From assembly GCA_016744695.1 (NCBI GenBank), contig JADGDV010000034.1:1-35420 (forward strand): a DNA stretch of 35,420 bases, in the 5' to 3' direction. The notes below the pieces were generated by a model that saw only the letters and a program-made list of their open reading frames with translations, made no database searches and was not told where the DNA came from. Each line of letters begins with the position of its first letter. Positions within the stretch are counted from its first letter, which is position 1. The stretch is from Hahellaceae bacterium (GTDB lineage Bacteria > Pseudomonadota > Gammaproteobacteria > Pseudomonadales > Oleiphilaceae). The position numbers were made by a program, and so were the translations under genes. Below are positions 4,133 to 35,420 of this stretch, piece by piece.

Positions 4133-4140
4133 TTAAGTAC

Positions 4141-4176: not shown

Positions 4177-4321
4177 GTGAGCTGCCTCTCAACTAAAGAA
4201 AACTCAGCTTTTTGACGGATATCAAAAACCACCTTATTTAAACGAGTATTAACATAATGTCACCACCAACGCACAATAAAGGTGTTGACATGAGTTAAAT
4301 ACAATAAAAAGGTAGTAAATC

Positions 4322-19848: not shown

Positions 19849-19898
19849 TTTGGTATTTCCTCAATATATTAAGCAGTGTTGCTTGTATGTACATACTG

Positions 19899-20591
19899 CT
19901 AGCGATAAGTAACATAGTCAGAGTCAGCCAATTCCAGGTGCAAAAAATTATTCAAATAAGCGATACTAATACGCTCACCTGAAAATAAAAATTTTGACAC
20001 ACTGGTATTAGCAAGCATCTCATTAATAGCAAACGTTTCTTTATTGCCCAGTTTTAAAACCTGCTGCAGAATAGCTGAAACTGGCCCACCGGAGGTAAAT
20101 ACAATAATATTTTTTGCATTATCGGCCTGTGCTATTACTTCTTTCATGGCTTTAGTACAGCGTGACTGAAACTGAGGCCACGATTCTTGGTATTCATGGT
20201 CAAAATCACCACTTATCCAACGGGCAACGCTGGCAGAAAATGATTTTTGAAATGCTTGGCTAGGTATCTGCTGTTTTGCCATGTCTGATGCCATAACGGC
20301 ATGATCTTCCCATTCGGGCTTATAGCGGGTCAGCACTTCTACATGGTTGAACTCATTAAACCCAGAATGAGTAACCACAGGGAGCGTACTCTCACCAAAA
20401 CCGTTCAAAAAATGAGAGGCTGTTTCAACGTGCCGAAGCATATCGCCTGAATATATCTGATCAGGCTGAACCAGTGTTTTAAATTGTGTTCCTAGTATTT
20501 TCGATTGTTCACAGCCTTTTTTTGATAACTTGTCATAATCAGCGTGACCAAAAGAAGCCTGCCCATGTCTAACTAAATATATTGCACCCAT
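19899..20591 (-). CDS. Histidine phosphatase superfamily protein (phosphoglycerate mutase-like)
   Basis: A 230-residue protein. The phosphate pocket LVRHGQ has Arg8-His9-Gly10, the nucleophile His9 of the family, followed by KLSKKGCEQSKILG. The region where the second catalytic His usually sits reads VFTSGGPVSAIL, with Ser-Gly-Gly-Pro in place of His-Gly-Gly; several members share this SGGP form, so activity is uncertain but not excluded. The acid-loop candidate is FNEFNHVEVL. It is the fourth gene of the operon, 29 bases after the kinase gene and 50 before the SDR gene. A role in removing phosphate from a phosphorylated acyl intermediate is possible but inferred only from context. Confidence 0.88.
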   Translation of the reverse strand: MGAIYLVRHGQASFGHADYDKLSKKGCEQSKILGTQFKTLVQPDQIYSGDMLRHVETASHFLNGFGESTLPVVTHSGFNEFNHVEVLTRYKPEWEDHAVMASDMAKQQIPSQAFQKSFSASVARWISGDFDHEYQESWPQFQSRCTKAMKEVIAQADNAKNIIVFTSGGPVSAILQQVLKLGNKETFAINEMLANTSVSKFLFSGERISIAYLNNFLHLELADSDYVTYR

Positions 20592-20620
20592 ATGCTTCTC
20601 TATTTAAGTATGCGACCTAG

Positions 20621-21685
20621 TTAAAGCGTGCTTTTTGAAATCAGTTTCATACAGCGCTTCTCAAGATACTTAGCTACATCAACAAAACCGGCAAAACGCT
20701 TATCTTTTGTTTGTCCGTGGTAATAACGATAATAAATTTGCTGAACAATAGCCGCCAAACGAAATAAGCCATAAATTTCATAAAAGTCAAAATTTGAAGC
20801 CGTTAAACCAGATTTAGCAAGGTAATAGTTGACCACTTCTTTGCGAGTAAGCATACCTTTAAGGTGTGTTGGTTGGCGGCGCATCATTTTGAAACCGGGG
20901 TCATCATCTGCTTGAACCCAGTAAGCAAGGCTATTTCCTAGGTCCATCAAAGGGTCACCGAGCGTTGCCATTTCCCAATCCAATACCCCTATAATTTCAA
21001 ACGGGTTATCGGGATTTAAAACTACATTATCAAAGCGGAAGTCATTATGAATAACGCAGGTTTTAACATCCTCAGGCATCTTATCTTTCAACCAAGCAAT
21101 AACCTCTGAAAATGAAGTCGCGTCTTCAGTGATTGCTTTGTTATAACGATCACTCCAGCCTTCAATTTGGCGCTGAACATAACCACTACCCTTGCCTATG
21201 GCCTCAAGCCCTGCGGCTTTATAATCAACCTTATGGAGGTCTACGAGCTTATCAATTACATTCAAACACAAGCGACGGGTGTCTTCTTCATTTAAGGCCA
21301 GTTCTTTGGGCATTTCCTGTCTAGGAATAATACCAACAAAGCGCTCCATTACGTAAAAGTCACACCCCATTACCGCATGATCATCACACTGAGTAAAAAC
21401 TTCGGGCACATAAGGATAAACGTCTCGAAGAGACTTCATGATATCCGCTTCACGCAGCATGTCATGAGCAGATTTTGCAATTTTTCCAAACGGAGGTCGG
21501 CGTAATATCAAGTCTTTATTATAATACTGTATTAAGTAAGTGAGATTTGAAGCACCGCCAGAAAACTGCTTAACAATCGGCTTCCCTGTTAACTCAGGTA
21601 ACACTTCTTTTAAGTATTCATCTACTTTAACAACGTTAAGATTTTCACCTTCTCTTACGGCTGTTGCTTCATCTAATACTGACAT
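20621..21685 (-). CDS. ACAD10/11-type phosphotransferase (aminoglycoside phosphotransferase fold)
   Basis: A 354-residue kinase-like protein. N-lobe substrate and nucleotide loop with QFSGGASNLTYLI (about residues 40-52). Catalytic loop HNDFRFDN with His213, Asp215 and Asn220; metal-binding LDWEMATLGDP with Asp236. This wording closely matches the kinase domain of ACAD10/ACAD11 and of LvaA, which phosphorylate 4-hydroxyacyl-CoA. The enzyme probably uses ATP on a hydroxyacyl-CoA in the cytoplasm; the exact chain is unknown. AGGAG lies 7 bases before the ATG. It is third in the operon, between an SDR and the histidine phosphatase, and two genes after the ACAD11-like dehydrogenase with which its homologues are fused in animals. 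Confidence 0.9.
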   Translation of the reverse strand: MSVLDEATAVREGENLNVVKVDEYLKEVLPELTGKPIVKQFSGGASNLTYLIQYYNKDLILRRPPFGKIAKSAHDMLREADIMKSLRDVYPYVPEVFTQCDDHAVMGCDFYVMERFVGIIPRQEMPKELALNEEDTRRLCLNVIDKLVDLHKVDYKAAGLEAIGKGSGYVQRQIEGWSDRYNKAITEDATSFSEVIAWLKDKMPEDVKTCVIHNDFRFDNVVLNPDNPFEIIGVLDWEMATLGDPLMDLGNSLAYWVQADDDPGFKMMRRQPTHLKGMLTRKEVVNYYLAKSGLTASNFDFYEIYGLFRLAAIVQQIYYRYYHGQTKDKRFAGFVDVAKYLEKRCMKLISKSTL

Positions 21686-21736
21686 ACGCTCACTCCTTTT
21701 CTTATTCGGGAAGCTAAAATTTGGATGATTTAATTG

Positions 21737-22543
21737 TTACTTAAATAATTTTTTTGCCTGATATTTCATCAGAGCACTAAAGCCTTGCGGTACAATTCGC
21801 TTGAAATACCACATACGACGCTCTAAAGTGTGAGTAACCACCCAGAATTCATTTTTAATGTAGGCCTCGTAAATACTGTCAGCAATATCTTCAGCCGAGA
21901 TCTTAGACTGACTCATCATTTTATTTACTTTTTTATGAATACCCCCCATATTAGTGGCACGTATAGACTCTGTAAGATTGGTCTTGAAAAATGCAGGGCA
22001 TACAACACTGGTTGTTATATTGCTGGCATCAAGCTCAGATGAAAGCGTTTCAGAAAGAGAAATAACACCGGCTTTGGTTACATTGTAATTGCTCATAAAC
22101 GGCGCATTTAATAAACCGGCTGCTGAGGCAATATTTACAAAATGACCACCGCCTTGTTTCTTAAATACAGGAATGAACGTTTTACATCCCCTAACAACAC
22201 CCATCAGGTTAATATCTAGCACCCACTGCCAATCATCTAGGCCAATTTCTTCTAGTGCCCCCGCGGCCCCCCCTACTCCTGCATTATTAACAACAATATC
22301 GACGCCCCCCCAACGATCATCTAATTGAGCTCTGACTTTTTCTATATCTTCAATTTGTGTAACATCACAATAGGTATAAAAAGCATCTGAGGTAATCGTG
22401 TTAAGTTCAGTTTCTGTTTCTTTACCACGATCATTGTTAACATCGCCGATACATACACGAAAACCTTCGCGTGCAAATTTCAGGGCCACAGCTTTACCTA
22501 ACCCGCTAGCCCCACCCGTAATAAAAATTCGTTTTTCAGTCAT
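21737..22543 (-). CDS. Short-chain dehydrogenase/reductase
   Basis: A 268-residue SDR. TGGASGLG at residues 9-16, Asp34 after the second strand (CIGDVNN) suggesting NAD, NNAGV at 86-90, Ser140, Tyr153 and Lys157 (YNVTK). A longer C-terminal tail (about 230-268, LERRMWYFKRIVPQGFSALM) is basic and hydrophobic, as in SDRs of lipid-like substrates that touch membranes. It is second in the operon, 52 bases after the acyl-CoA dehydrogenase. The likely job is oxidation of a hydroxy or reduction of a keto group in the same acyl-CoA pathway. Confidence 0.92.
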   Translation of the reverse strand: MTEKRIFITGGASGLGKAVALKFAREGFRVCIGDVNNDRGKETETELNTITSDAFYTYCDVTQIEDIEKVRAQLDDRWGGVDIVVNNAGVGGAAGALEEIGLDDWQWVLDINLMGVVRGCKTFIPVFKKQGGGHFVNIASAAGLLNAPFMSNYNVTKAGVISLSETLSSELDASNITTSVVCPAFFKTNLTESIRATNMGGIHKKVNKMMSQSKISAEDIADSIYEAYIKNEFWVVTHTLERRMWYFKRIVPQGFSALMKYQAKKLFK

Positions 22544-22595
22544 GGTGAATACACTCTTCGTGATAATTGTTCGTTAATTAAGTAGGTTAATTAAT

Positions 22596-23807
22596 TTATT
22601 TATTTTTGTACTTAGCCAGTTCAAACTTAGAAACAAGTAAGCGGTGAACTTCATCGGGGCCGTCAGCCAGCCTCAAGCATCGAGCATAAGCAAACAGCTG
22701 TGTTAATGGCACGTCTTCACACATACCTTCCCCACCATGTATTTGTATAGCTTGGTCCACAATGGTTTGAAGAACATTAGGTGCAACCACTTTTATTTGT
22801 GATACATCACTCATGGCGCCCATAATACCTTTTGTATCTAGCGTCCAGGCAGCTTTCATGGTTAGCAAGCGTGCTTGCTCAATAGCCATACGGGCATTGG
22901 CGATGATATCTCTGTTGCCACCTAAATTTGCCAAAGGTTTGCCAAATGCCTCACGACTAATGGCTCTTTTTATTAACAATTCTAAGGTGCGCTCGGCTGC
23001 CCCTAATGCACGCATACAATGATGAATTCTACCTGGCCCTAGGCGACCTTGTGCCACTTCAAACCCTCGGCCTGCTCCGGCAATAATTGCGCTTTTCGGT
23101 AACCTTACATCGGTAAAACTCACTTCACCATGCCCATAAGGGGCGTCTAAATCACCAAAAACAGGTAACATTCGCTCAATTTTTACCCCAAGGGTATTTT
23201 TAGGAACAAGCACCATTGTGTGTCGTTGATGCCTATGAGCGTCGGGGTTACTAATACCCATAAAAATTAATACTTCACAGTCTGGGTGACCTATACCGGT
23301 ACTCCACCACTTGCGACCATTGAGTACAACCTCATCACCTTCTATTATGGCTGTTGCGGCTATATTAGTAGCATCTGATGAGGCTACATCTGGTTCAGTC
23401 ATGCAAAAAGCCGAACGTATTTTTCCTTCCAATAGCGGCGTTAGCCACTGCGCTTTTTGTTCTTCTGAACCATAATGAACCAACACTTCCATATTGCCTG
23501 TATCGGGCGCATTACAGTTAAAAATTTCTGGTGCAATAAAACTTCGCCCTGTCTGTTCGGCTATAGGGGCGTATTCAGCATTGCTCAAAGCGGGGCCATA
23601 GCCTTCAACTGGCAAAAACATATTCCATAAGCCCTGTGCTTTAGCCTTTGCTTTTAGCTCATCAATAATGGGTAACACAACCCATGGGTTATCCAGTGAA
23701 TTGAGCTCTCGAAAATAATCATCCTCTATGGGCAGTATTTCTTGCTCCATAAAGGCTTTAACTCGGCTCAAATAGTCTTGCGAACGTTCTGATAAGCTAA
23801 AATCCAT
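22596..23807 (-). CDS. Acyl-CoA dehydrogenase, ACAD10/11 type
   Basis: Start chosen at ATG 23807 (403 residues), 6 bases after GGAG; the frame also opens at TTG 23819, but that overlaps the ribosome site. It has full acyl-CoA dehydrogenase architecture: N-terminal helical domain (about 1-130), FAD and substrate core FCMTEPDVASSDATNI and NGRKWWSTGIGHPDCEV, a middle beta domain, and a C-terminal four-helix domain. ACAD11-type signatures are clear: GRGFEVAQGRLGPGRIHHCM, IHGGEGMCED and LRLADGPDEVH, with a D-E where other acyl-CoA dehydrogenases have their base. FAD enzyme, cytoplasm. It is the first gene of the five-gene operon and is divergent from the LysR gene at 24009. A perfect 9-bp dyad lies in its promoter region. 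Confidence 0.95.
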   Translation of the reverse strand: MDFSLSERSQDYLSRVKAFMEQEILPIEDDYFRELNSLDNPWVVLPIIDELKAKAKAQGLWNMFLPVEGYGPALSNAEYAPIAEQTGRSFIAPEIFNCNAPDTGNMEVLVHYGSEEQKAQWLTPLLEGKIRSAFCMTEPDVASSDATNIAATAIIEGDEVVLNGRKWWSTGIGHPDCEVLIFMGISNPDAHRHQRHTMVLVPKNTLGVKIERMLPVFGDLDAPYGHGEVSFTDVRLPKSAIIAGAGRGFEVAQGRLGPGRIHHCMRALGAAERTLELLIKRAISREAFGKPLANLGGNRDIIANARMAIEQARLLTMKAAWTLDTKGIMGAMSDVSQIKVVAPNVLQTIVDQAIQIHGGEGMCEDVPLTQLFAYARCLRLADGPDEVHRLLVSKFELAKYKNK

Positions 23808-23825
23808 GGTTGTCTCCAAAGGTTT

Positions 23826-24916: not shown

Positions 24917-25825
24917 CTACTGAAGAAAATCATACCCTTTTGATTTTTCGACAAGAAAATCAACAAATGAGCGTATATTTGGAGAAAGGTGTCGAGCGGA
25001 AGAGTAAACCACCCAAAGTGTTCGTTGAGGAAAAGTCCACTGTGGGAGAATAGACAATAGTGAGCCATCCTTAATATTTTCAGCACACAAGTAGGTAGGA
25101 AGCTTTGCAATTCCATGCCCCCTGCAGGTGAGTTTGTGGAGTAATATCTGGCTATTAACAATGACAGGGCCTGTGACAGAAACCGTTTGTTTTTCATGAC
25201 CTTTAGAAACACCGCCTTGAGAAAGCTGCCATTTGGAATAAATTTCTAAATTACTCATGCGCAAACATTTATGCCCACCTAATTCTGTTAGATCTTTTGG
25301 CATGCCATTTTCTCTTATGTAGTCAGGGGCAGCACAAAGAAGGTCTGTTGTATTACCCAATGGCCGGGCGATAAGTGTTGAATCTTTTAGATTGGCTAAA
25401 CGGATGGCTACGTCAAACCCTTGGTCAATGGGATTAACTATTTCGTTACTGGCAACAATGTCAACTTCCACTTCAGGGTAAAGTTTTAAATAGTCATCAA
25501 TAATATCACCAAGAAAAACATAAATTGACTCAACAGGAGCGGTAACTCTAAGCAAGCCTTTAGGGGTTTCGTGTGAAGACATAACTATTTGGTTCGCATC
25601 AGCAAGATCTTTTGTGATGCGCGCGCAACGTTGATAATACATCATGCCCGTCTGGGTTGGCTTTACTAACCGTGTAGTACGGTTCAATAGTCGAACGCCC
25701 AATTGGTCTTCTAAACGACGTATTTTTCTGCTGACTGTCGATTGAGGGACCGCCAAACTATCAGCGGCACCACTAAAGCTACCTAATTCAACCACTTTTA
25801 CAAAAACTTCAATATCATCAATCAT
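24917..25825 (-). CDS. LysR-family transcriptional regulator (CrgA-like)
   Basis: Start chosen at ATG 25825 (302 residues); the frame also opens at TTG 25831. The helix-turn-helix is FSGAADSLAVPQSTVSRKIR, then RLEDQLGVRLLNRTTR. The effector domain has the usual CrgA-type wording (GLLRVTAPV, IDQGFDVAIRLANLKDSTLI). Transcribed divergently from the GMC oxidoreductase gene with a 137-base spacer, so it probably regulates it. The ribosome site is weak. Confidence 0.93.
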   Translation of the reverse strand: MIDDIEVFVKVVELGSFSGAADSLAVPQSTVSRKIRRLEDQLGVRLLNRTTRLVKPTQTGMMYYQRCARITKDLADANQIVMSSHETPKGLLRVTAPVESIYVFLGDIIDDYLKLYPEVEVDIVASNEIVNPIDQGFDVAIRLANLKDSTLIARPLGNTTDLLCAAPDYIRENGMPKDLTELGGHKCLRMSNLEIYSKWQLSQGGVSKGHEKQTVSVTGPVIVNSQILLHKLTCRGHGIAKLPTYLCAENIKDGSLLSILPQWTFPQRTLWVVYSSARHLSPNIRSFVDFLVEKSKGYDFLQ

Positions 25826-25879
25826 AGTCAAAATATCATCAATTCTAATTTATCCAAAAATGAATTAAAGATATACAAT

Positions 25880-25962: not shown

Positions 25963-27969
25963 ATGCGTTTAAATACAGAAATTTGTGTTGTTGGCAGTGG
26001 GTTTGCCGGAGCGATTATAGCCTCAAGGCTCGTAGATGCAGGCTATAGCGTAACATTGTTAGAGCGTGGCCCTTGGAGAAACACCCTCCCCCTTGCTTCT
26101 TCTGGTATAACACAGGGGTCACCCTTCCCCAGAGGCGTTAAACTTTTCACCCAACTATTACGCACCTTGCATCATCCAAAGTTACCCTTTAAGTCACTCA
26201 CTTTTTCCAAAAAAGGGCTGTTTGAATACGGTGTTTATAAAGGTGTTAACACGATTTGCTCTTCAGGTGTTGGCGGTGGCAGCCATGTTTATGGTGCATT
26301 AATTGAACGATCCCCAAATAAAGAATACTGGAATGGTATTTCAGATAGTTTAAATGAAGAAATGATGGATGCTCACTATCAAAGAGTAGAATCTGAGCTT
26401 TTGGCTATATCACCCTCATCTGTATCAAATATCCCCAATTACACACCCGATAAATGGAAAGACAGCAATATTTTCAATGTTTCTGATGAGGTTCCACAGC
26501 CTTCTATGGGTTTGCTATTTCCTGACCATTCCTCGTCTGAGAAGCCCTCAACTGACGATCAAATTAAACGTAAAGCATCACGTTACAAGGGAGACTCCAC
26601 ATTTGGCTCGCCTTCAGGGGCTAAAGGAACAGTAGATTTTCTCTATCTTATTCCTGCATTAAAAAAAGGCCTGAAAGTTCTCGATATGCACGAAGTTAAG
26701 TGTTTACGAAAGCTTGAAGATGGTGGATACACTATTGATGCGATTAATCATCGAACGAACAAACCGCTGGCTATTAATTGCAATCAGGTCATTTTAGCAG
26801 CTGGCACCATGAATACCACACGATTGTTATTCCAAAGCCGAGCATCAGGTGGTCTTCAGGGCATGCCTATGCTGGGTCAAGGCTTCGGGTCTAATGGTGA
26901 TTACTCGGCATTATGGGAGTTACAAGATACCGAAAGAGACTATAGGCAGGGAACACCTTGCCATGGTCGAGTGGCCATACCCGGCACACCTAAAGAGCCA
27001 AACTATGTGTTAGGGGGTGTAGATATACCATCACTTCCACGCTGGGTACCAGGCTTTATTCGCACTCCGGTAAATCGTCAAAAACATAATTTACTTTTAA
27101 TTGGAATGGGCGCAGATGCGGCTGATGGTGAGTTCACTTTTCATAAAAATAAGTTATCACTAACGTATAATCAAAAAAATAGCCCTATTTTTGAGCAGAT
27201 TAGAGAAGGCTTTAAGCAAGTAAGTAAAGCGTCAGGCAAGCCCGTTCGTTATGGATATAAAGCAGTCACCGTTCATCCTTTTGGTGGTGCGATAATTGGT
27301 ACCGACGAACGCTCTGGGGTTATCAACAGTAATGGAGAAGTCTATGGTCATCCTTCATTATTTGTTGCTGATGGTTCTGCCTTGCCAAAAGCAGTGGGTG
27401 GGCCACCCTCATTAACCATTGGCGCATGGAGCTCACATGTAGCAGAACAGATAATCAAAAATTATCCAGCATCCCAAAAAGCCGTGAAACTTATGGCAGG
27501 ATATGACCTTGTCGGGAACACCCTTGTTGCAAAATCATTCAAAGAATTAGATTCACTATTTGCAGCACTACCAAGCCCAACATCATTAGACGTTGACGGG
27601 CATTACTGGGGGAAGCTGTTAGTCACCCGAGGGCTTACCCTAGCACCATTTTTTATACGTCGCCCGTTGATCTGTGCCTTTGAGAAAATTTTATTTCTTA
27701 ACTGGAAAGGAAAATCATTTTCAGGCAAGAAAGGTATTAACCTGTTTAAAAGTTACGAGAAACCAAAGAAAGCACTTCCCTTTAAAGTGGGACTAGAACT
27801 CAGCCATGACGGCAGTGGGCAGGTGGTTCAGCTAGATTATAATATTGAGAAAAACCCTAAGAAATTCCGAAAAATATCAGGAGAAGCCAGGCAGCTTAAT
27901 GAAAGCGAATGGTTGGCTAAAATGTACTATGGAAATAAAAACTGGCTTTATTATATTTTGAAAAAATAG
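25963..27969 (+). CDS. GMC-type FAD oxidoreductase fused to a C-terminal GxYxG domain
   Basis: A 668-residue protein. FAD-binding motif GSGFAG (11-16) with Glu34; second FAD loop GVGGGSHVYGA (from 102) as in cholesterol-oxidase-like GMC enzymes; active-site VHPFGG with His438; and a C-terminal FAD contact FVADGSALP. The position that in cholesterol oxidases reads NPxxTI is PPSLTI here (Pro481-Pro482), so the usual Asn is absent. Residues about 525-668 are an additional domain with GHYWG (546-550) and NWKGKSF, homologous to the separate protein at 33037. The substrate is unknown; a sterol, terpenoid or alcohol is plausible. AGAGG lies 5 bases before the ATG. Divergent from a LysR gene. It is followed only by a weak GAGC/GCTC hairpin and a T-run (27972-27994). 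Confidence 0.9.
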   Translation: MRLNTEICVVGSGFAGAIIASRLVDAGYSVTLLERGPWRNTLPLASSGITQGSPFPRGVKLFTQLLRTLHHPKLPFKSLTFSKKGLFEYGVYKGVNTICSSGVGGGSHVYGALIERSPNKEYWNGISDSLNEEMMDAHYQRVESELLAISPSSVSNIPNYTPDKWKDSNIFNVSDEVPQPSMGLLFPDHSSSEKPSTDDQIKRKASRYKGDSTFGSPSGAKGTVDFLYLIPALKKGLKVLDMHEVKCLRKLEDGGYTIDAINHRTNKPLAINCNQVILAAGTMNTTRLLFQSRASGGLQGMPMLGQGFGSNGDYSALWELQDTERDYRQGTPCHGRVAIPGTPKEPNYVLGGVDIPSLPRWVPGFIRTPVNRQKHNLLLIGMGADAADGEFTFHKNKLSLTYNQKNSPIFEQIREGFKQVSKASGKPVRYGYKAVTVHPFGGAIIGTDERSGVINSNGEVYGHPSLFVADGSALPKAVGGPPSLTIGAWSSHVAEQIIKNYPASQKAVKLMAGYDLVGNTLVAKSFKELDSLFAALPSPTSLDVDGHYWGKLLVTRGLTLAPFFIRRPLICAFEKILFLNWKGKSFSGKKGINLFKSYEKPKKALPFKVGLELSHDGSGQVVQLDYNIEKNPKKFRKISGEARQLNESEWLAKMYYGNKNWLYYILKK

Positions 27970-27995
27970 AGGAGCTGAACCGCTCAGTATTTTTA

Positions 27996-28047
27996 ATACG
28001 CATAATGGTTATTGTCCCCATGTGCGTTTATGCTATGCTATGCGTAT
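27996..28047. repeat. 9-bp inverted repeat with overlapping TATGC repeats between convergent genes
   Basis: ATACGCATA (27996-28004) and TATGCGTAT (28039-28047) are perfect reverse complements, 34 bases apart. The right arm overlaps three tandem TATGC units (28029-28043). It may help terminate the convergent GMC and cytochrome genes, but lacks a good T-tract. Confidence 0.4.
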
Positions 28048-28075
28048 GCAACTCATAGTAATCAATTAGGGTCAT

Positions 28076-28552
28076 TTATTGACGGAAAGTAGCATGGCAT
28101 TGCACGCAATAGCCCAATGTAGTTTGCAGTGCACGAAGTGATTTGTTTGTATCTTTTGTTTTCAATACATCACCCAGAACATCACCACTTTCATGAAACG
28201 CTAAGCCTAGTGACTTAAAGTCATTATTACTGAACATATTACACATATTTTTCATTTCTTCAGTTAACCCCAGCTTTGAATGAGCTATTTCAGAACCCTT
28301 ATCAAAATCTCCTTCAGCAATTGAGCTTATAATAGTCTGGACAGCTTCTAGATGAGATCTCATATTTGATAATTGATGCTGCTTCATTTGTGGCGAGAGA
28401 TTAAGAGAAACTCTACCGTCATTCATAGAGTGCTTCATGTTGTGATGCATCATTTTGCCCATAGGGGCACCATTCTCATCGGCATAGGCGTTCAGAGTCG
28501 CCCCTAGAAAGAAAAGTATCGCAAGTAAAGCTGTTACATATTTGATAATCAT
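28076..28552 (-). CDS. Periplasmic cytochrome c'-like protein with C-terminal CXXCH
   Basis: Start chosen at ATG 28552 (158 residues), preceded by TGGGA; the frame extends upstream to a TTG at 28609 with no signal-peptide logic. Signal peptide about 1-24 (ending LNAYA). A Met/His-rich stretch follows (MGKMMHHNMKHSMN), then a predicted four-helix bundle. A single heme site, CVQCH at 149-153, lies at the extreme C-terminus, as in cytochromes c' and related helical cytochromes. The Met/His segment could bind copper or another metal; this is inference. It is downstream of the LysE-type exporter on the same strand, with 69 bases between. Confidence 0.75.
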   Translation of the reverse strand: MIIKYVTALLAILFFLGATLNAYADENGAPMGKMMHHNMKHSMNDGRVSLNLSPQMKQHQLSNMRSHLEAVQTIISSIAEGDFDKGSEIAHSKLGLTEEMKNMCNMFSNNDFKSLGLAFHESGDVLGDVLKTKDTNKSLRALQTTLGYCVQCHATFRQ

Positions 28553-28621
28553 TGATTTCCCATTATATTTTGATGTCTGACGCACGACTGCATTCAGAGT
28601 CCGCTGCAATGCCTTATTAGG

Positions 28622-29248
28622 CTATTTTACAGTTTCCAAGGTTGCCATTTTGATTCCTGTAGAAATCAGGGTTATACCAGCAACTTTGTTAATTATGCGT
28701 ATAACCCAAGATTTTACCTGCTTTTTTGATAATTGTTTACCCATACGGCCAAACATAGTGTAAACCAACAAATCAGCCAAAAAACAAGTGAGTCCCATAA
28801 GGAGCATTTGAAACACAACGGGTTCATTAGGGTCAATGAATTGTGGTAAAAGTGCAGAAAAATACAGTAGTGCTTTGGGATTTGCTAATTGTACAACTAA
28901 ACCTTGAGTGAACGCTTTTGCTGGACTTATTTTAATGCTTTGAGCTTCAATATTTATAGCACCAGCTTTGGTAAAAATTGCTGAAGCCCCTAGAAATATA
29001 AGATATGCAACACCAAACCACTTAATAATTGAAAACACTAAACTTGATGCTACGATCAGCGATGCGATACCAGTAGCCGACAATATAAAAAAAAATGCGT
29101 CAGCACTTGCTACACCAAAAATACTTATAAAGGTTATTTTTGAATTATGGGAGGCACCCTGCGTCGCAACAGTGATAGCTGCAGGCCCAGGAACTATAAT
29201 AAGCATTACAGTTGTAACAAGAAAGAAAAGATATAACTCGATATCCAT
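28622..29248 (-). CDS. LysE/RhtB-family exporter
   Basis: Start chosen at ATG 29248 (208 residues), 6 bases after AGGA; the frame reaches an ATG at 29278, but that has no ribosome site. The N-terminus (YLFFLVTTVMLIIVPGPAAI) and the motif AFTQGLVVQLANPKALLYFS are typical of LysE/RhtB transporters, with about six transmembrane helices. These exporters remove amino acids or related small molecules by proton exchange. The substrate is not predictable here. Confidence 0.92.
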   Translation of the reverse strand: MDIELYLFFLVTTVMLIIVPGPAAITVATQGASHNSKITFISIFGVASADAFFFILSATGIASLIVASSLVFSIIKWFGVAYLIFLGASAIFTKAGAINIEAQSIKISPAKAFTQGLVVQLANPKALLYFSALLPQFIDPNEPVVFQMLLMGLTCFLADLLVYTMFGRMGKQLSKKQVKSWVIRIINKVAGITLISTGIKMATLETVK

Positions 29249-29363
29249 AATATTCCTATTTTTGCCCACTTTGCACATGGGAATAGTGGGATGACATGCT
29301 TTTTTTCATCATCTCCTTACCTATTATTAAACATATGCCTAAACTTGAAAGAAACGGTAATAG

Positions 29364-29795
29364 TTAATTAATAATATCCAGCTGGCTGCTCTGCCACCCT
29401 AAAAAATCGCCATCTAAGTGGTATAAGTTTTTGTAATCAAGATCTTTTAGCAAGTCTGTCACCATCGAAACTCTTCGACCACTTTGACAATAAAAAACTA
29501 TATTCTTTTTTAGATAGGGATCTAATAATGAAATATTTTTTAATATTGCATGATGCGGGATATTTACCGCTGAAGCTATATGCCCTGCATTAAATTCGCC
29601 AGGCGATCTAACATCAATCAGCACATAGTTGTTGTCTTGCCTGTTTTTCCCCTCTAATATCGATAACACTTCTTTTTGCGTCAGATCTGTTACCTCTGAT
29701 TGAGCAAATGCATTACCTGAGGTAATAAAGACTATCGCCAAAAACGAGCAGATATGAATAAGTAGTGTTGTAGACCTTGTAGTTCTCAAAAACAT
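29364..29795 (-). CDS. Periplasmic single-domain rhodanese
   Basis: A 143-residue protein. Signal peptide about 1-31 (ending GNAFA). One rhodanese domain with VLIDVRSPGEFNAGHIASAV and the active-site loop CQSGRR with Cys103 as the persulfide-forming residue. Complete and of usual length. It moves sulfane sulfur or acts as a thiol redox protein outside the cytoplasm. GGAG lies about 10 bases before the ATG. The gene is divergent from the trxB region, with the pseudogene and hairpins between them. Confidence 0.92.
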   Translation of the reverse strand: MFLRTTRSTTLLIHICSFLAIVFITSGNAFAQSEVTDLTQKEVLSILEGKNRQDNNYVLIDVRSPGEFNAGHIASAVNIPHHAILKNISLLDPYLKKNIVFYCQSGRRVSMVTDLLKDLDYKNLYHLDGDFLGWQSSQLDIIN

Positions 29796-29843
29796 TAAAA
29801 TTTATCTCCTTTTGGATACCCTAAAATCCATTTACTTTATACT

Positions 29844-29970
29844 CGAGTGACCCCTTTTTGTAAAATCATTCAAAGAGTTGGATGCGATATTGGGGTAAGC
29901 TGTTAGTCACCTTATGCCCTGCTCTAGCACCTTTATTTATAACTGGCTCCATTACATTATTGAAAAAATA
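29844..29970 (+). pseudogene. Decayed remnant of the GMC-linked C-terminal domain
   Basis: Three blocks align, in order and on the same strand, with the 3' end of the GMC gene at 25963. Block 1, 29859-29891, matches 27528-27560 (15 exact bases at 29862-29876; KSFKELD). Block 2, 29888-29941, matches 27604-27657 (15 exact bases at 29897-29911; KLLVT then LAP). Block 3, 29941-29970, matches 27940-27968, including the last residues before the stop. Between blocks 1 and 2, 47 bases are missing, which shifts the frame; between 2 and 3, about 280 are missing. An in-frame stop follows block 1. Fainter similarity begins near 29844. It is a relic of a second copy of this domain and cannot encode it. 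The spacer 29796-30109 holds this relic, the hairpins and the trxB promoter. Confidence 0.85.
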
Positions 29971-30019
29971 ATGTAATGGAGCAGCTCAAATAAGTTTTTC
30001 TTATTTGAGCTGCTCCATT
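29946..30019 (+). terminator. Two overlapping, mutually exclusive perfect hairpins
   Basis: Hairpin 1: 29946-29960 pairs with 29968-29982, 15 bp, 7-base loop. Hairpin 2: 29975-29994 pairs with 30000-30019, 20 bp perfect, loop TTTTT, and runs into TTTT. They share AATGGAGC (29975-29982), which can pair with GCTCCATT at 29946-29953 or at 30012-30019. It lies directly after the relic and upstream of the trxB promoter, so it is best read as the orphan terminator of the lost gene, not a trxB leader. Confidence 0.8.
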
Positions 30020-30032
30020 TTCTCGCTTGTCA
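29985..30032 (+). repeat. Direct repeat copy 1 (hairpin arm plus promoter -35)
   Basis: The 48 bases match 32921-32968 at 40 positions with no gap. Weaker similarity continues through the -10 region (TATATTG.AC in both). The two copies flank the trxB to LysR block in direct orientation. Confidence 0.85.
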
Positions 30033-30056
30033 CTCTATGAGACTTCTTATTATATT
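30027..30056 (+). promoter_or_regulatory. Sigma70-type promoter of the trxB operon
   Basis: TTGTCA (30027-30032) and TATATT (30051-30056) with an 18-base spacer. The arrangement is conserved in the second repeat copy (32963-32991), which supports that it is real. Confidence 0.65.
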
Positions 30057-30094
30057 GCACTCAACGTTATAACCACTTTCACATCAACCGATAG

Positions 30095-31063
<969 letters not shown>

Positions 31064-31483
31064 ATGAACTTTAATTTCAAAAGTATAAAAATTACCTCTC
31101 TGCTTTTAAGGGTATATGGTTTAGGTTTAGTTGTAGGGATGCCTGCACTGTTCTTTCTTTGGCCCCCAGGGTTTCAATGGGGTAGCCACCCTGAATCTCA
31201 TCATGACCCATTGTCACCTTATGTGTTTATGCTAGGCTGTATGTATATCTCGCTTGGCATCATGCTGTTACGATCAGCTAAGCAACCTCAAAAGCACACA
31301 AGCATCATTGACTATACGATTTTATCCAGTATTTTGCATGGCACACTAATGACCGTTCAATCGTTTATAGAGCCTCATGAATTTTGGCATTTAGCAGGTG
31401 ACGTGCCAATATTGTTTTTTATGGCGCTTACTTTGATAATATGGCACCCTAAACGCATTAATAATGCAGCCTTTAGTAAATAG
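31064..31483 (+). CDS. Small four-helix membrane protein, DUF6632-like
   Basis: A 139-residue protein with four hydrophobic helices (about 10-32, 50-67, 80-98, 108-128). Its wording (LRVYGLGLVVGMPALFFLWP, SPYVFMLGCMYISLGIMLL, and a histidine in SSILHGTLMTVQSF) resembles the DUF6632 family; this is from memory and not certain. The ATG follows the trxB stop with no gap and has no separate ribosome site, which implies translational coupling. The function is unknown. Confidence 0.75.
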   Translation: MNFNFKSIKITSLLLRVYGLGLVVGMPALFFLWPPGFQWGSHPESHHDPLSPYVFMLGCMYISLGIMLLRSAKQPQKHTSIIDYTILSSILHGTLMTVQSFIEPHEFWHLAGDVPILFFMALTLIIWHPKRINNAAFSK

Positions 31484-31491
31484 GGACGTTT

Positions 31492-31959
31492 ATGAGTAAA
31501 CATAAAGATCATGGCCCTGGGGTTCGCTTCCCTCCCCCTATCGTCCCTGTTATTTCAATATTGACAGGTGTCGGTCTTCAGTATGCATACTCACTACTTA
31601 TTAGCGTTCCTTTTTTAACACTATTCGGAGCTGCCTTTCTCTTTTCAGCAGCTTTATTAATATTGCTGTCAGTTATGGCTTTTTATCAAAATAAAACCAG
31701 CATTTTACCTCACAGGCCTGATTCAGCATTAATAACTTCAGGCCTGTATAAAATAACACGCAACCCCATTTATTTAGCATTTGTATTACTGCAAGCAGGC
31801 ACGGCATTAGTTACCCAAAATGGGTGGATACTTATGTTTACACCTGTAACCATTATTATACTAAATGAAAAAGTGATTAAAAAAGAAGAAGCCTACTTAA
31901 CAGGTCTTTTTGGTACAAAATATCATGAATATTTGCTTCAGGTACGTCGCTGGCTGTAA
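31492..31959 (+). CDS. Isoprenylcysteine carboxyl methyltransferase-like membrane protein
   Basis: A 155-residue membrane protein. The C-terminal half has the ICMT/PEMT-like signature: TSGLYKITRNPIYLAFVLLQ, then an E-x-x-L block (KKEEAYLTGLFGTKYHEYLL) ending in VRRWL. Family members methylate small or lipid-like substrates with S-adenosylmethionine, at the inner membrane; the bacterial substrates are mostly unknown. It starts 8 bases after the previous gene and belongs to the trxB operon. Confidence 0.88.
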   Translation: MSKHKDHGPGVRFPPPIVPVISILTGVGLQYAYSLLISVPFLTLFGAAFLFSAALLILLSVMAFYQNKTSILPHRPDSALITSGLYKITRNPIYLAFVLLQAGTALVTQNGWILMFTPVTIIILNEKVIKKEEAYLTGLFGTKYHEYLLQVRRWL

Positions 31960-31997
31960 ATCTAGTCACCTAAATTCGTATAATAAGAGAACCCTGA

Positions 31998-32909
31998 ATG
32001 CTAACACGCCGTGACTTACCCACCTTGAATTTACTCAGAGTATTTGAAGCGGCGGGACGCTATCTAAGTTTCAAAAAAGCGGCTGAAGCGCTCTTTGTAA
32101 CCCCGCCAGCAGTAAGTCAACAGGTAAAGACGCTTGAAGAGCAACTAGGCATCCCTCTTTTCATTCGAAAAAATCGTGAGCTCGCATTTACTGAAGCGGG
32201 AGAACAATACTGGCAGCAAATTAACACTCAACTAAATCAACTTCGGCAAGCAACAGCGACCTTAAGAAAAGACTACAGCCACAGAGTGCTTAAAATCAGC
32301 TTAATGCCTCCCGTCGCAAGCCGGGTTGTATTACCCAATCTTGCCTCTTTTCATAAAGAATACCCAGATATTGAGCTTCGTATTGAGACATCATTACGCA
32401 ATGCTGATGTTTTAAGCCAGCAAGTAGACTTAGCTATACGCTTTGGTGAGCCGCCTTGGGATGGTTTACTGCATGAAAAGTTAATAGACGCCTATATTCA
32501 GGTAGTTTGCCCTACCGGAACCAGTGAAAAGTATCAATTAAAACAAGCACCAAAGAATATCTGTAATGTCCCCTTAATTCATATGACTGAACGACCTTAT
32601 GCATGGCAGCGCTGGTTTGAAATGACAGGATTTGGGGAACCCACAGGCCAACAGTATTATTTGGACGATTACCCCGCTGCAATGGACGCGGCAGAATCAC
32701 TGGGTGCCATGCTAGCACTAATGCCAGTTGAAACCCCCTTAATCAATAGCGGACGGGTTGAAGCCCCCTTTCCTGCTCTTGGGCCGCTTGAAGAGTCCAT
32801 TTATGCGGTTTATCATGAGGGTAACAAAGATGACTTAGCCATTCGCTCGTTCATTAACTGGTTACTGCAGCAGTTTAACCGCTTAGAGTTAAAATCATCA
32901 CACATTTAA
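31998..32909 (+). CDS. LysR-family regulator, GcvA-like
   Basis: A 303-residue protein. The N-terminus (LPTLNLLRVFEAAGRYLSFK, then KAAEALFVTPPAVSQQVK) is the GcvA/AmpR-type start. The effector domain has QVDLAIRFGEPPWDGL and the ERPYAWQRWFEMTG segment seen in this group. It follows the methyltransferase-like gene by 38 bases on the same strand and precedes the GMC operon by about 130 bases. It could control either. Unlike the other LysR genes here, it is not divergent from a target. Confidence 0.93.
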   Translation: MLTRRDLPTLNLLRVFEAAGRYLSFKKAAEALFVTPPAVSQQVKTLEEQLGIPLFIRKNRELAFTEAGEQYWQQINTQLNQLRQATATLRKDYSHRVLKISLMPPVASRVVLPNLASFHKEYPDIELRIETSLRNADVLSQQVDLAIRFGEPPWDGLLHEKLIDAYIQVVCPTGTSEKYQLKQAPKNICNVPLIHMTERPYAWQRWFEMTGFGEPTGQQYYLDDYPAAMDAAESLGAMLALMPVETPLINSGRVEAPFPALGPLEESIYAVYHEGNKDDLAIRSFINWLLQQFNRLELKSSHI

Positions 32910-32920
32910 ATAATGCATAT

Positions 32921-32968
32921 TTCAAATAAGTTATTCTTATCTGATATTCTCCTTTTTCTCGTTTGTCA
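32921..32968 (+). repeat. Direct repeat copy 2 with decayed hairpin
   Basis: Matches 29985-30032 at 40 of 48 positions. The hairpin arm here is reduced to about 9 bp with one mismatch (TCAAATAAG 32922-32930, CTTATCTGA 32936-32944), followed by a T-rich tract, and may still end the LysR transcript. Confidence 0.8.
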
Positions 32969-32991
32969 ACGCCAAAGTGTTCTCGTATATT
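32963..32991 (+). promoter_or_regulatory. Sigma70-type promoter of the GxYxG-GMC-AhpD operon
   Basis: TTGTCA (32963-32968) and TATATT (32986-32991) with a 17-base spacer, conserved with the trxB promoter. A start near 33000 would give a leader of about 40 bases before the ATG at 33037. Confidence 0.65.
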
Positions 32992-33036
32992 GTACACAAA
33001 CCAACCAATTATATGTTTTCAGCATTGGAGAGAAAC

Positions 33037-33543
33037 ATGACTGTAGTTGCTCAAACTTTAGGCTCCTTTAACCCGAACAGCTTATTAAAACACTCACAAA
33101 AAGAGTTAGATGAATTATTTAAAACACTTCCTGCACTTACAGAAGGTGAGCTTGAAGGTGTCTACCGAGGTCGTTTATTTGCCATTATGGGGCTTGGTAT
33201 TCTTCCACGATTTTTACGTAATTTACTTTACCGCCTGCTTCAAACCTTTATTAACCCATGGAAAGGGAAGCGATTTGATGGTGATAATGGCGCAAATATC
33301 TGGTTTTCAAAGAGGGGAACCCTACCTTATGGGTTCTATAGTATTAATTCGCAAGACAGCGCCGTTGATGGAGAACCCGTTACTCACTTATCGTACGACG
33401 TTGATAAAAATTTAAGAATATTACGCCCTGTGCGCGGTGAAACCAGAAAGCTTTCAGATGGAGTCTATCTTGCAAGAATGAATTATCAAACACGTAAGAA
33501 GTTGGTACGAGTTTTATATTTCACTTTAGATAACATTAGCTAG
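33037..33543 (+). CDS. Stand-alone GxYxG domain protein, partner of GMC oxidoreductase
   Basis: Start chosen at ATG 33037 (168 residues), 6 bases after GGAG; a GTG at 32977 opens the frame earlier but lies inside the promoter. It is homologous along its length to residues about 520-668 of the fused GMC protein at 25963: KELDELFKTLP here against KELDSLFAALP there, GVYRG (41-45) against GHYWG, NPWKGKRF against NWKGKSF, and a YD.~KN..~R..~GE.R.L block at the end. The GxYxG motif, the W-x-GK-x-F segment and the length resemble the GXWXG/DUF4334 family, as a tentative match. No signal peptide. It is first in an operon with a GMC enzyme 16 bases downstream. It may bind substrate or hold the GMC enzyme; this is inferred from fusion. 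Confidence 0.8.
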   Translation: MTVVAQTLGSFNPNSLLKHSQKELDELFKTLPALTEGELEGVYRGRLFAIMGLGILPRFLRNLLYRLLQTFINPWKGKRFDGDNGANIWFSKRGTLPYGFYSINSQDSAVDGEPVTHLSYDVDKNLRILRPVRGETRKLSDGVYLARMNYQTRKKLVRVLYFTLDNIS

Positions 33544-33559
33544 ATTTCGGAGCTTTGTA

Positions 33560-35023
33560 ATGACAAACAAATACGATGTTATAGTAATTGGAAGCGGTTT
33601 TGGCGGCTCAGTCTCATCTTACCACTTGGCGAAAGCCGGTGCTAAGGTACTCTTATTGGAAAGAGGCCCTTGGCGCGATACAGAACCCGTACGCGCAATG
33701 GGGATAAAAAAACGAAGCCATTTACCCGCAGGTAGCCATTTTTATACACATATACTTAATCGTTTTAGTGCGCCTTGGTTACCCAAATCAGGAGTCAAAG
33801 TTAATACGCACGGCTTGTTTGATATTCACTACGACCGTGACATGAGTGTAGTGTGCTCTTCTGGTGTAGGGGGTGGCAGCCATGTTTACAGTGCGATGAA
33901 TATTCGACCCGCAGTAGACGCGTATTGGGATAACCATGTTGATGGTGTTAGTACCGACATGATGGAGCCACACTATCAATGGATGATTGATAAAATGGGA
34001 GCTCGCCCCCCTGCCCTTGACGATAATATTCCTAACTTCACAGGTAAACGTTATGAAGACTCACCACACTTTGTGGCTGATGAGAGTGTTCAGCAACCTG
34101 CAATGAGCATGGATATGTCTTCAAACCCTGAAAACTTTAGTAATAACAGTTTTTTTGGTTGTGTGGGCTGGTCTAAAGCGACCCTAGATAAAATTTTATT
34201 GTCTCCTGCAATTAACGCGGGGCTCGAAGTGAAAGCGTTACAGGAATGTCTTGGCATTTATCGCATTGATGGTCCTTCAGCGACTAGTTATCGACTAGAA
34301 GTTATGGACCACCAAACTAAACGCCACACCTATTATCAAGCAGACCGCATTATTTTAGCGGCAGGGACCTTAAATACCCAACGCCTGCTATTTCGTAGTA
34401 GAGATAATGGAGGTTTGTCTGGAATGCCTTCGCTAGGTTGTAACTTTGGTGGTAATGGTGATTTTCCTGCCTACTGGGGCGTTAACGAGAAAGGCGCTGA
34501 TTTCAGTATAGGTACACCCAGTCATGGCCGATTTGAGCTGCGCGATTACCCTTCATGTCCAAATTTCACAGAATACGGTATGAGTGGTATAGATGACGTT
34601 CCCCTTGTTGGGAATGCGGTGAGAAACCGGTTAAAACGTGATCTGGTATTAGTCGGCATGGGCGCAGATCGTGCCAATGGGGCTTTTACTTGGAAAAACG
34701 GGCGACTTCGTACCCGTTATATTCAACACAACAACCCCATTATAGGGGCTATTGCTAAAGCTTTTGAAGAAATCAGCCGTCGCAGTGGAAAAAAAGTCTG
34801 GTTCACCAATAAGCGATTACTCACCGTTCACCCATTAGGTGGTGCTAGATTGGCCTCAAACCAAAATGATGGTGTCGTCAATGAACAGGGGGAAGTTTAT
34901 GGCAACCCAGGATTGTTTATCGCTGATGCGTCAGCGTTACCCGCAGCACCAGGATCTCCCCCATCAATGACTATTGCCGCTTGGGCATGTCATGTGTCGC
35001 AAACCTTGAGTAACAAAATATAA
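33560..35023 (+). CDS. GMC-type FAD oxidoreductase
   Basis: A 487-residue protein, the catalytic part only. GSGFGG at 11-16, FAD loop GVGGGSHVYSA from residue 102, active-site VHPLGG with His424, FIADASALP and then GSPPSMTIAAW near the C-terminus, where Pro again replaces the Asn of cholesterol-oxidase-like enzymes. Clear paralogue of the first about 500 residues of the protein at 25963, with key motifs at the same early positions, but without the C-terminal domain, which is encoded by the gene just upstream. It is followed after 13 bases by the AhpD-like gene. It probably oxidises an alcohol of a lipid or terpenoid type; the electron acceptor is unknown. Confidence 0.93.
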   Translation: MTNKYDVIVIGSGFGGSVSSYHLAKAGAKVLLLERGPWRDTEPVRAMGIKKRSHLPAGSHFYTHILNRFSAPWLPKSGVKVNTHGLFDIHYDRDMSVVCSSGVGGGSHVYSAMNIRPAVDAYWDNHVDGVSTDMMEPHYQWMIDKMGARPPALDDNIPNFTGKRYEDSPHFVADESVQQPAMSMDMSSNPENFSNNSFFGCVGWSKATLDKILLSPAINAGLEVKALQECLGIYRIDGPSATSYRLEVMDHQTKRHTYYQADRIILAAGTLNTQRLLFRSRDNGGLSGMPSLGCNFGGNGDFPAYWGVNEKGADFSIGTPSHGRFELRDYPSCPNFTEYGMSGIDDVPLVGNAVRNRLKRDLVLVGMGADRANGAFTWKNGRLRTRYIQHNNPIIGAIAKAFEEISRRSGKKVWFTNKRLLTVHPLGGARLASNQNDGVVNEQGEVYGNPGLFIADASALPAAPGSPPSMTIAAWACHVSQTLSNKI

Positions 35024-35036
35024 AAGGAGTCAAAAT

Positions 35037-35420
35037 ATGGCTACGTTTAGAAAAAGAGTCTTCACACCAGTCACATTTACAATAAGCCTTTCAAAGGCTG
35101 TAATTTACTCTCCCGTATTGATAAAGGCGCTAATCAAGCCGGCAACATCCCGCGCATTACGTGAGAAAGTGATGCTATCAACAACCTCTGTTAATGATTG
35201 TCGTTATTGCTCATGGGTACACACTAATCTTGCGTTACAGAATGGTGTAGATCTTGATGAACTAAATCAAATGCTAAGTGGTGTTACCGGTGAATTAAGT
35301 GACGATAATGAAGCAGTGGCTGTTATTTTTGCACAGCATTTTGCAGAACAGCAAGGCAAACCTGAAGCCGATTTAAAAGAACAACTTAAAGCTGCATTTA
35401 ATCGCAAACAAAAACGAGAA
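35037..35420 (+). CDS. AhpD/carboxymuconolactone decarboxylase-like protein, 3' end outside window
   Basis: 128 residues are visible with no stop before the window end. AGGAG lies 8 bases before the ATG. The motif REKVMLSTTSVNDCRYCSWV, then H, gives Glu43, Cys55, Cys58 and His62, the AhpD-type redox and proton-relay set (E...C..C...H). Such proteins are peroxidatic disulfide oxidoreductases or partners of catabolic enzymes. Being third in the operon with a flavin oxidase-type GMC enzyme, it might remove peroxide formed by it; this is inference. Confidence 0.85.
   Translation, partial: MATFRKRVFTPVTFTISLSKAVIYSPVLIKALIKPATSRALREKVMLSTTSVNDCRYCSWVHTNLALQNGVDLDELNQMLSGVTGELSDDNEAVAVIFAQHFAEQQGKPEADLKEQLKAAFNRKQKRE

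Follow-up and report, generated by a model that had tools for sequence, protein, structure and literature searches.

A predicted beta-barrel domain fused to one GMC oxidoreductase and encoded directly upstream of another in a Hahellaceae bacterium

Results

The window (the whole 35,420-nucleotide stretch of DNA that was analyzed) contains two genes for GMC oxidoreductases, both on the forward strand. GMC1 (25963-27969) is an intact open reading frame encoding 668 amino acids. Its GMC core (approximately residues 1-505) is followed by a C-terminal fused barrel domain (residues 525-668; 27535-27966, forward strand). GMC2 (33560-35023) encodes a cholesterol-oxidase-like enzyme of 487 amino acids without the fused domain. 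A stand-alone barrel protein of 168 amino acids is encoded on the same strand (33037-33543), and 16 bp separate its gene from GMC2. Both GMC proteins scored above the Pfam cut-offs for PF05199 (51 bits for GMC1 and 50.9 bits for GMC2; cut-off 24.6) and PF00732 (26.6 and 34.1 bits, respectively; cut-off 23). An alignment of their cores over 482 columns shows 39% identity.

Three further genes flank these. Downstream of GMC2 is a gene for an AhpD/CMD-family protein (35037-35420, forward strand), truncated by the end of the contig. The protein has a CxxC...H motif (C-R-Y-C-S-W-V-H) and matched the CMD and AhpD core domain models (PF02627, 32 bits, cut-off 23; TIGR00778, 29.2 bits, cut-off 27.8); peroxidase activity is a prediction from these matches. 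Immediately 5' of the small-protein gene is a gene for a LysR-type regulator (31998-32909, forward strand; PF00126 and PF03466). A second LysR-type gene (24917-25831, reverse strand) is divergent from GMC1 and falls in a BLAST cluster (c3) shared with the LysR genes of the split units described below. Genes were called with a simple ORF script that made some of them over-long at the start, so that neighbors can seem to overlap by as much as 173 bp. For the small protein we used the ATG at 33037. An in-frame GTG at 32977 would give a protein of 188 amino acids; the copy in a sister genome (L014) begins at the ATG equivalent to 33037.

The best PDB match of both GMC proteins was cholesterol oxidase of the Streptomyces/Brevibacterium type (1B4V and 1COY; profile E 1.6e-31). 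Like cholesterol oxidase, both have the histidine of the HP[LF]GG motif. In contrast, the asparagine of the G-V-N-P motif is a proline in both. We take these histidine and asparagine positions to be catalytic in the GMC active site. Because the asparagine is replaced, the substrate and even the catalysis of the two enzymes may differ from those of cholesterol oxidase. Neither protein reached the cut-off of the NCBIfam cholesterol oxidase model NF058674 (91 and 93.6 bits; cut-off 850).

We found that the tail of GMC1 and the stand-alone protein are homologous. Beginning at GMC1 residue 525, the two aligned over 146 columns with 35% identity (BLASTP, 76.6 bits, E 2e-23). In a 17-row alignment of the family, seven columns are invariant (K78, F80, N87, Y120, E135, R137 and L145, in the numbering of the small protein), and the fused tail keeps all seven. 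Given this E value and the seven retained residues, we dismiss a chance match of short segments. The tail is also not a member of an unrelated second family, as it and the small protein group together in a 13-row clade (support 99/99) of the domain tree. In a search of the whole genome, the small protein recovered its own sequence and then the GMC1 tail (E 6.5e-20); the third match was at E 0.39 only. An earlier note on this DNA had claimed that one domain occurs here twice, fused and split, in reversed order. Both parts of that claim stand: the two regions belong to one family, and the GMC precedes the domain in the fusion and follows it in the split pair.

We found that the domain recurs beside GMC genes in other bacteria. 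In the 26 genomes of this order that carry the domain, 41 domain loci were counted, and 10 of them have a GMC fused to the domain or next to it, compared with approximately 0.23 expected. In a separate collection, 8 of 79 GMC loci carried a domain gene, every one directly upstream of the GMC gene. These eight comprised the five closest relatives of GMC2 and three loci from Chloroflexota and Spirochaetota. The family search gave 6 new loci, the best-scoring ones (there were 8 further places besides), and all 6 had an adjacent GMC gene. The co-occurrence that the earlier note had named as support is therefore frequent and extends across lineages. The fusion itself was seen only in this genome (1 of 163 family genomes; 1 of 41 domain places in the order). 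A collection of plasmids gave no match to the small protein of the window or to another family member (L165).

In the GMC tree, the domain-linked genes are spread over separate branches, with GMC1 placed outside the clade of GMC2. Well-supported branches of the domain tree force at least four changes of the GMC label. Those of the GMC tree force only one change of the domain-linkage label, so that, as far as this tree goes, the linkage may have had one origin followed by losses. We consider it very improbable that the linked genes are unrelated and were merely co-regulated and transferred together, with the fusion as a neutral accident. Such a history would account for the patchy distribution, the single fused case and the many domain genes without a GMC neighbor, but the linkage is far above expectation, every invariant residue is kept in the fused tail, and distant GMC branches are linked, including a GMC (loci L089 and L017) that is choline-dehydrogenase-like by eye.

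Within the GMC2 clade, the domain is part of a larger conserved unit. The linkage is tight and on one strand, and the order LysR-domain-GMC-AhpD-like is conserved across 11 loci. Each of the 11 has a LysR gene upstream (identified by BLAST cluster or by sequence), and an AhpD-like homologue directly follows the GMC2 relative in 10 of the 11, the window included. A cultured relative, Thalassolituus marinus (L092), also has the unit. The three-part module of small protein, GMC and AhpD-like protein suggested previously is thus borne out, with the LysR gene also a part of it.

The domain family is not exclusive to GMC genes. Related copies adjoin SDR genes, a block of animal-haem-peroxidase, catalase-like and DyP-like genes, or, at 5 of 44 domain loci, a TetR gene as the only neighbor. 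Another 11 of the 44 loci adjoin none of GMC, SDR, the peroxidase block or that TetR family.

We used AlphaFold models to compare the domain with known structures. The model of the small protein was a beta-barrel (pLDDT 86.9, pTM 0.82), as was that of a distant family member (pLDDT 84). Foldseek ranked 4MVE first for both models (E 1.4e-6 for the small protein and 7.9e-7 for the distant member; TM 0.60-0.69), and 4MVE was the sole PDB match at E <= 0.001 for either. The matches that followed for the two models were FABP5, bile-acid-binding proteins, and lipocalins or L-PGDS. These FABP and lipocalin matches, which would make the barrel calycin-like, were weak, with E values of 1.2e-3 or higher and TM scores, by query length, of 0.23-0.46. 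4MVE (Tcur_1030) was placed in GXWXG/DUF4334 through a PF14232-positive protein that matched it at E 1e-18. A sequence-only search of the PDB with the small protein also gave a terminase (E 0.0037), a tyrosyl-tRNA synthetase (E 0.17) and poorer matches, all of which we took for chance matches as the fold did not back them. One family member had a Pfam match to Terminase_6 at E 0.15.

Profile comparisons also pointed to GXWXG/DUF4334. With hhalign, one alignment of the barrel family (A5) matched a DUF4334 alignment (A7) with a probability of 94.4 and E 9.4e-8 over 70 columns, and a second (A3) matched it with a probability of 77.7 and E 1.9e-5. The control comparison of A5 with a GMC alignment gave E 0.26. 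With a profile of 44 family members, one true PF14232 protein could be aligned over its two halves in the correct order (19.5 bits). Of three DUF4334 proteins searched with family models, the A3 model found none and the 44-member model found one. Against PDB sequences, the A5 profile ranked 4MVE first (E 0.057); the A3 profile did not list 4MVE and returned nothing useful. In a Pfam scan of 18 distinct members, none reached the GXWXG/DUF4334 cut-off. PF14232 was sub-threshold in two of them (L010, 19.2 bits; L165, 14.6 bits; cut-off 25), and PF14231 was matched by none of the 18. A search for DUF4334 in 29 relatives gave no match, a result that says little because the control genomes gave none either.

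Because 4MVE tops both fold searches and the profiles are similar, we assign the small domain, as a predicted beta-barrel, to the GXWXG/DUF4334 superfamily. The idea that it is a divergent relative therefore stands by fold and profile and falls short of the Pfam cut-off. Like GXWXG/DUF4334 proteins (PF14231/PF14232), the domain has the predicted fold of 4MVE, the W-x-GK-x-F motif, and shared Y and R residues. Unlike them, the copies in the window have G-x-Y-x-G in place of the G-x-W-x-G motif that lies near the N-terminus (G-V-Y-R-G in the stand-alone protein and G-H-Y-W-G in the fused tail); the exact G-x-W-x-G is present in three family members (L004, L095 and L096). The window copies also have E-x-R where the DUF4334 proteins seen mostly have H-F-R. 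A further difference may be the coupling to GMC genes, which was surveyed in the barrel family itself.

Discussion

We infer from genomic context that the domain works with the flavoenzyme. The barrel looks fit for a greasy molecule. It is fused to one flavin enzyme and adjacent to another here, and it adjoins related lipid-oxidizing enzymes in many further bacteria, a pattern that suggests a role in handing substrate to these enzymes. We propose, with a probability of about one half for the whole scheme, that the domain is a lipid-binding partner of the GMC flavoenzyme. According to this proposal, the modeled barrel would hold a hydrophobic alcohol or an oxidized lipid inside and present it to the partner GMC enzyme, presumably by direct contact. 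The enzyme would then oxidize the presented substrate. The AhpD-like CxxC protein would probably remove any peroxide formed as a by-product, and the LysR protein would switch the unit on. In GMC1, the putative carrier would be fixed to its enzyme by fusion.

The invariant residues of the family could equally indicate an active site, since the majority (K, N, Y, E and R) have polar or charged side chains. The domain could then be an enzyme in its own right, for example one that isomerizes, dehydrates or hydrolyzes an oxidized lipid, acting on the product or substrate of the GMC through putatively inward-facing invariant polar residues, and GMC1 would be bifunctional. The invariant K, F, N, Y, E, R and L across 17 diverse members exceed the polar needs of a plain lipid cavity, although buried arginine and tyrosine also occur in fatty-acid-binding proteins, where they hold the head of the ligand. 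A barrel enzyme, lipocalin-type prostaglandin D synthase, came second for the distant-member model at a non-significant E of 0.013, and family members also stand with SDRs or haem peroxidases; against this, no known catalytic family was matched in Pfam or NCBIfam. On balance we regard a separate catalytic role as rather unlikely.

It is also unlikely, in our view, that the domain has no ligand and serves the GMC enzyme as a structural subunit or in its maturation (a small subunit, or a chaperone for FAD loading or folding). The close coupling to GMC genes, seen in either order, and the fusion would fit such a subunit, and fructose and gluconate dehydrogenase are likewise GMC flavoproteins with a small partner encoded alongside. 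However, those small subunits are helical and are exported with the enzyme, whereas the domain here is a predicted beta-barrel, and 10 members gave no Pfam match to a PF13618-type small subunit at E <= 10. Moreover, the same family stands beside SDRs and haem peroxidases, and the next relatives of the domain-linked GMCs (22 loci, L097-L118) lacked a domain gene in the flanking sequence retrieved, which was short for some loci.

The proposed substrate transfer has a parallel in animals. One report (PMC11847541) describes experiments in which FABP1 gives fatty acids directly to cytochrome P450 4A11. As proposed here by analogy, a calycin barrel would pass a hydrophobic substrate to an oxidizing enzyme. 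Unlike the system described here, FABP1 is an animal protein and its partner is a P450 rather than a flavoenzyme, and the transfer, experimental in that report, is inferred for the bacterial pair.

More tentatively, and with some doubt, we suggest that the family as a whole acts as a general module that presents substrates for lipid oxidation in bacteria, with one type of barrel serving several unrelated oxidizing enzymes. If so, it would serve GMC enzymes of several branches, SDRs, and the animal-haem-peroxidase/catalase-like/DyP-like block, with its likeness to an oxylipin pathway, in parallel with the FABPs that serve P450s in animals, and this would be a first function for the DUF4334 superfamily. 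In the literature searched, we found no paper describing the barrel-GMC pair and no function for GXWXG/DUF4334 barrels, including 4MVE, for which a structure has been solved.

The link to GMC genes, the fusion and the four-gene unit lead to a testable idea, that GXWXG/DUF4334 barrels carry hydrophobic substrate for an oxidase. If this is right, the barrels would correspond, in bacteria, to fatty-acid-binding proteins, and they would provide a handle on the substrates of cholesterol-oxidase-like GMC enzymes that have no assignment.

Two copies of one domain beside GMC oxidoreductases

We found that the window encodes the same small barrel domain twice, once fused to a GMC oxidoreductase and once beside another. 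GMC1 (25963-27969, + strand, 668 amino acids) carries it as a C-terminal tail (residues 525-668; 27535-27966) that is 35% identical to the separate 168-amino-acid protein encoded at 33037-33543 (+) (BLASTP, 146 columns, E = 2e-23). The small-protein gene ends 16 bp before the start of GMC2 (33560-35023, +) on the same strand. The order is therefore reversed: GMC then domain in the fusion, domain then GMC in the split pair. In a search of the whole genome, the small protein's matches besides itself were the GMC1 tail (E = 6.5e-20) and a single weaker sequence (E = 0.39). Both GMC proteins score above the Pfam GMC cut-offs, and their cores are 39% identical. The next gene (35037-35420, +), cut by the contig end that is also the window end, encodes an AhpD/CMD-type protein exceeding the PF02627 and TIGR00778 cut-offs. 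An ORF check and these comparisons agree with the earlier note on the reading-frame positions, the homology, the adjacency to GMC2 and the reversed order.

A divergent branch of the GXWXG/DUF4334 superfamily

We gathered the domain family by sequence search followed by profile search. Among 390 genomes of the order Pseudomonadales, 26 carried the domain, at 41 places; among 163 from the source organism's own family, 17 did, at 21 places; and an earlier profile found it in 4 of 398 from the phylum. Seven columns are invariant in a 17-member alignment, A3 (K78, F80, N87, Y120, E135, R137 and L145, in small-protein numbering), in the pattern W-x-GK-x-F ... N ... Y ... E-x-R ... L, and the fused tail retains all seven. 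Together with the E value of 2e-23, this places the two window regions in one family rather than in unrelated ones.

The earlier note had guessed that the domain is a GXWXG/DUF4334 relative. The window copies matched no Pfam model at E ≤ 1 and no NCBIfam model at E ≤ 10, and none of 18 distinct members scanned reached the GXWXG/DUF4334 cut-offs of Pfam (two had weak PF14232 matches). The predicted structure of the small protein (11 sequences; mean pLDDT 86.9, pTM 0.82) begins with two helices at the N-terminus and a strand, followed by further helices (the longest at 58-69) and then seven strands. The model of L165, a distant member from Spirochaetota, has much the same element order (pLDDT 83.5, pTM 0.81); the two models share their 11 input sequences from the family and so are not independent. 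In Foldseek searches, 4MVE was the sole PDB match at E ≤ 0.001 for both the small-protein model (E = 1.4e-6, TM 0.60/0.67) and the L165 model (E = 7.9e-7, TM 0.66/0.69). Most of the next-ranked matches were fatty-acid-binding, bile-acid-binding and lipocalin proteins (E = 1.2e-3 to 1.3e-1, low TM). We place 4MVE in the GXWXG/DUF4334 group because it is matched at E = 1e-18 by L171, a protein scoring above the PF14232 cut-off.

Profile comparison pointed the same way. With hhalign, another family alignment, A5, matched three PF14232 proteins over 70 columns (probability 94.4, E = 9.4e-8), compared with E = 0.26 for a control against a GMC alignment; A3 gave probability 77.7 and E = 1.9e-5. A 44-member model aligned the GXWXG and DUF4334 halves of L171 in order (19.5 bits) but recovered only one of three DUF4334 proteins; the 17-member model recovered none. 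Against PDB sequences, A5 ranked 4MVE first at a non-significant E of 0.057, and 4MVE was absent from the A3 matches. The guessed relationship thus stands on fold and profile, yet no member scanned reaches the Pfam cut-off, so we conclude that the domain is a divergent branch of the superfamily and not a Pfam member.

Co-occurrence with GMC genes

We fetched the flanks of 42 places (the order's 41 minus the window's two, plus those in genomes G554, G296 and G294), which with the window's two make 44 domain ORFs. Twelve of the 44 are fused to a GMC gene (1) or directly adjoin one (11), and in every case the two share a strand. Within the order this held at 10 of 41 places (two each in G000 and G025; one each in G223, G019, G006, G710, G714 and G109). 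The 26 domain-bearing genomes contain 192 GMC genes (PF05199, E ≤ 1e-5), and approximately 0.23 GMC neighbours would be expected by chance (Poisson P(≥10) ~1e-13, a rough guide rather than a test, with rounded genome sizes and kinship ignored). Seven family-search loci were inspected. All six new ones had a directly adjacent GMC gene; these rank among the best-scoring of the 21 family places, 8 of which lie outside the check. The seventh, L174, is the G294 place again, included above as L091, and has no GMC gene.

A survey starting from GMC genes covered 79 loci from a separate genome collection, drawn from the best 80 of 474 confirmed. The domain lay within the fetched flanks, directly upstream of GMC, at 8 of the 79: L092-L096, the five closest GMC2 relatives among the matches listed, and L147, L165 and L167, from Chloroflexota and Spirochaetota. 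It was absent from the fetched flanks, some of them short, at 71 of these 79 among the best 80. Both surveys bear out the co-occurrence that the earlier note set as a check. Split pairs were domain-first in the window, L054, L055, L062-L064, L067, L090, L092-L096, L147, L165, L167 and L180, and GMC-first, as in the fusion, in L057, L058, L089 and L175-L179. At L014/L090 (G296, same genus), the GMC2 counterpart is split into two reading frames and the adjoining barrel gene is intact (88% identical).

Eleven loci share a GMC2-type unit (window, L054, L055, L063, L064, L090 and L092-L096). All have an upstream LysR gene, identified by Pfam in the window and by sequence or BLAST cluster elsewhere, and 10 of the 11 (all except L064) have an AhpD/CMD relative directly after GMC, upholding the suggested three-part module. 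In the window and L050-L170, the CMD model (E ≤ 1e-5) matched no locus beyond the unit loci. Glutaredoxin/GST-like and rhodanese genes come next in L094 (Pfam), and genes alike by sequence occur in L093 (both) and L092 (rhodanese). Elsewhere in L094 (358-2847; Alcanivoracaceae MAG), a second barrel gene lies amid three CMD genes with no GMC adjoining.

Origin of the linkage

A tree built from 39 GMC proteins puts GMC2 in a clade of 10 domain-linked rows (support 99/99), and a second, distant domain-linked group has seven rows (100/100). GMC1 groups outside the GMC2 clade with the domain-less L115 and L118 (94/95). Domain linkage requires three changes on this tree, only one of them forced by well-supported branches, so one origin followed by losses may account for it. 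On the domain tree, the GMC label requires five changes, at least four of which are forced by well-supported branches. The L089/L017 GMC, choline-dehydrogenase-like by eye, is a further domain-linked protein, additional to the rows of the GMC tree. On the domain tree, the fused tail belongs to the GMC2-type clade (13 rows, 99/99), its exact place being unsure because of a long branch and unusual composition. The fusion was observed once, in this genome: no other fused reading frame was found among the 41 order or 21 family places, and no GMC1 counterpart in eight genomes searched, four of the same genus.

Other neighbourhoods of the domain

Besides the 12 GMC loci, 12 of the 44 had an adjoining SDR gene and no GMC (a raw count; SDR was assigned where BLAST clustered the gene with a window gene identified as SDR by Pfam). 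Four had a block of animal-haem-peroxidase-type, catalase-like and DyP-like genes without GMC, five had only the c4-cluster TetR gene, and 11 had none of these. The block labels derive from a single locus, L018/L056, where Pfam matched An_peroxidase at E = 1.7e-68 and, below cut-off, Dyp_perox_C (E = 0.002) and catalase (E = 1.6e-4); a third protein of the block had no Pfam match. L057 and L089 combine the DyP-like and catalase-like part with GMC. The SDR, peroxidase and TetR contexts weigh against a GMC-only role for the domain.

The barrel domain lies beside DyP-like and catalase-like proteins in L056, L057, L059, L060, L066 and L089; four of these six blocks add a ~940-1000-amino-acid protein of the animal-haem-peroxidase cluster. 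These blocks may represent a bacterial pathway for oxylipins or lipid peroxides. L050-L053 and L091 share a conserved TetR-barrel gene pair with no GMC, SDR or peroxidase gene directly adjoining, and a TetR gene of similar look precedes the PF14232 protein in L172. Near the fusion, window 19084-23819 (-) encodes, in succession, SDR, His_Phos_1, APH-type kinase, SDR and acyl-CoA dehydrogenase proteins, a set similar to an ACAD10/11-like pathway acting on hydroxy fatty acids. Window 1031-7507 encodes a pair of very large proteins, of 1033 and 1061 amino acids, with lactonase/beta-propeller matches, the second also with thrombospondin type 3 repeats.

A possible carrier for the GMC enzyme

Cholesterol oxidases are the nearest solved structures to the window GMC enzymes. 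However, both enzymes score far under the cholesterol oxidase family cut-off and have proline for the asparagine of the G-V-N-P motif, so their substrate may differ. The proline occurs in window 25963-27504 and 33560-35023 and in nearly all L092-L118 relatives; the position is alanine in L108 and one of two L111 proteins, and L010, a distant domain-linked GMC, retains G-V-N-P.

In the open literature searched, we found no function for DUF4334/GXWXG by title, no mention of 4MVE or Tcur_1030 and no description of a domain-GMC pair. Fold and enzymes are known; the link between them is what we did not find described.

In one study (PMC11847541), FABP1 is reported to pass fatty acid directly to P450 4A11, a precedent for the mechanism we suggest. 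Based on the calycin-like barrel, the polar invariant residues, the recurring alcohol- or lipid-oxidising partners and the CxxC peroxidase-type gene, the domain is most likely a carrier that presents a hydrophobic hydroxylated molecule to the GMC enzyme. The barrel would bind this putative ligand and present it through a proposed contact with the enzyme, and the AhpD-like protein would remove peroxide, a putative by-product.
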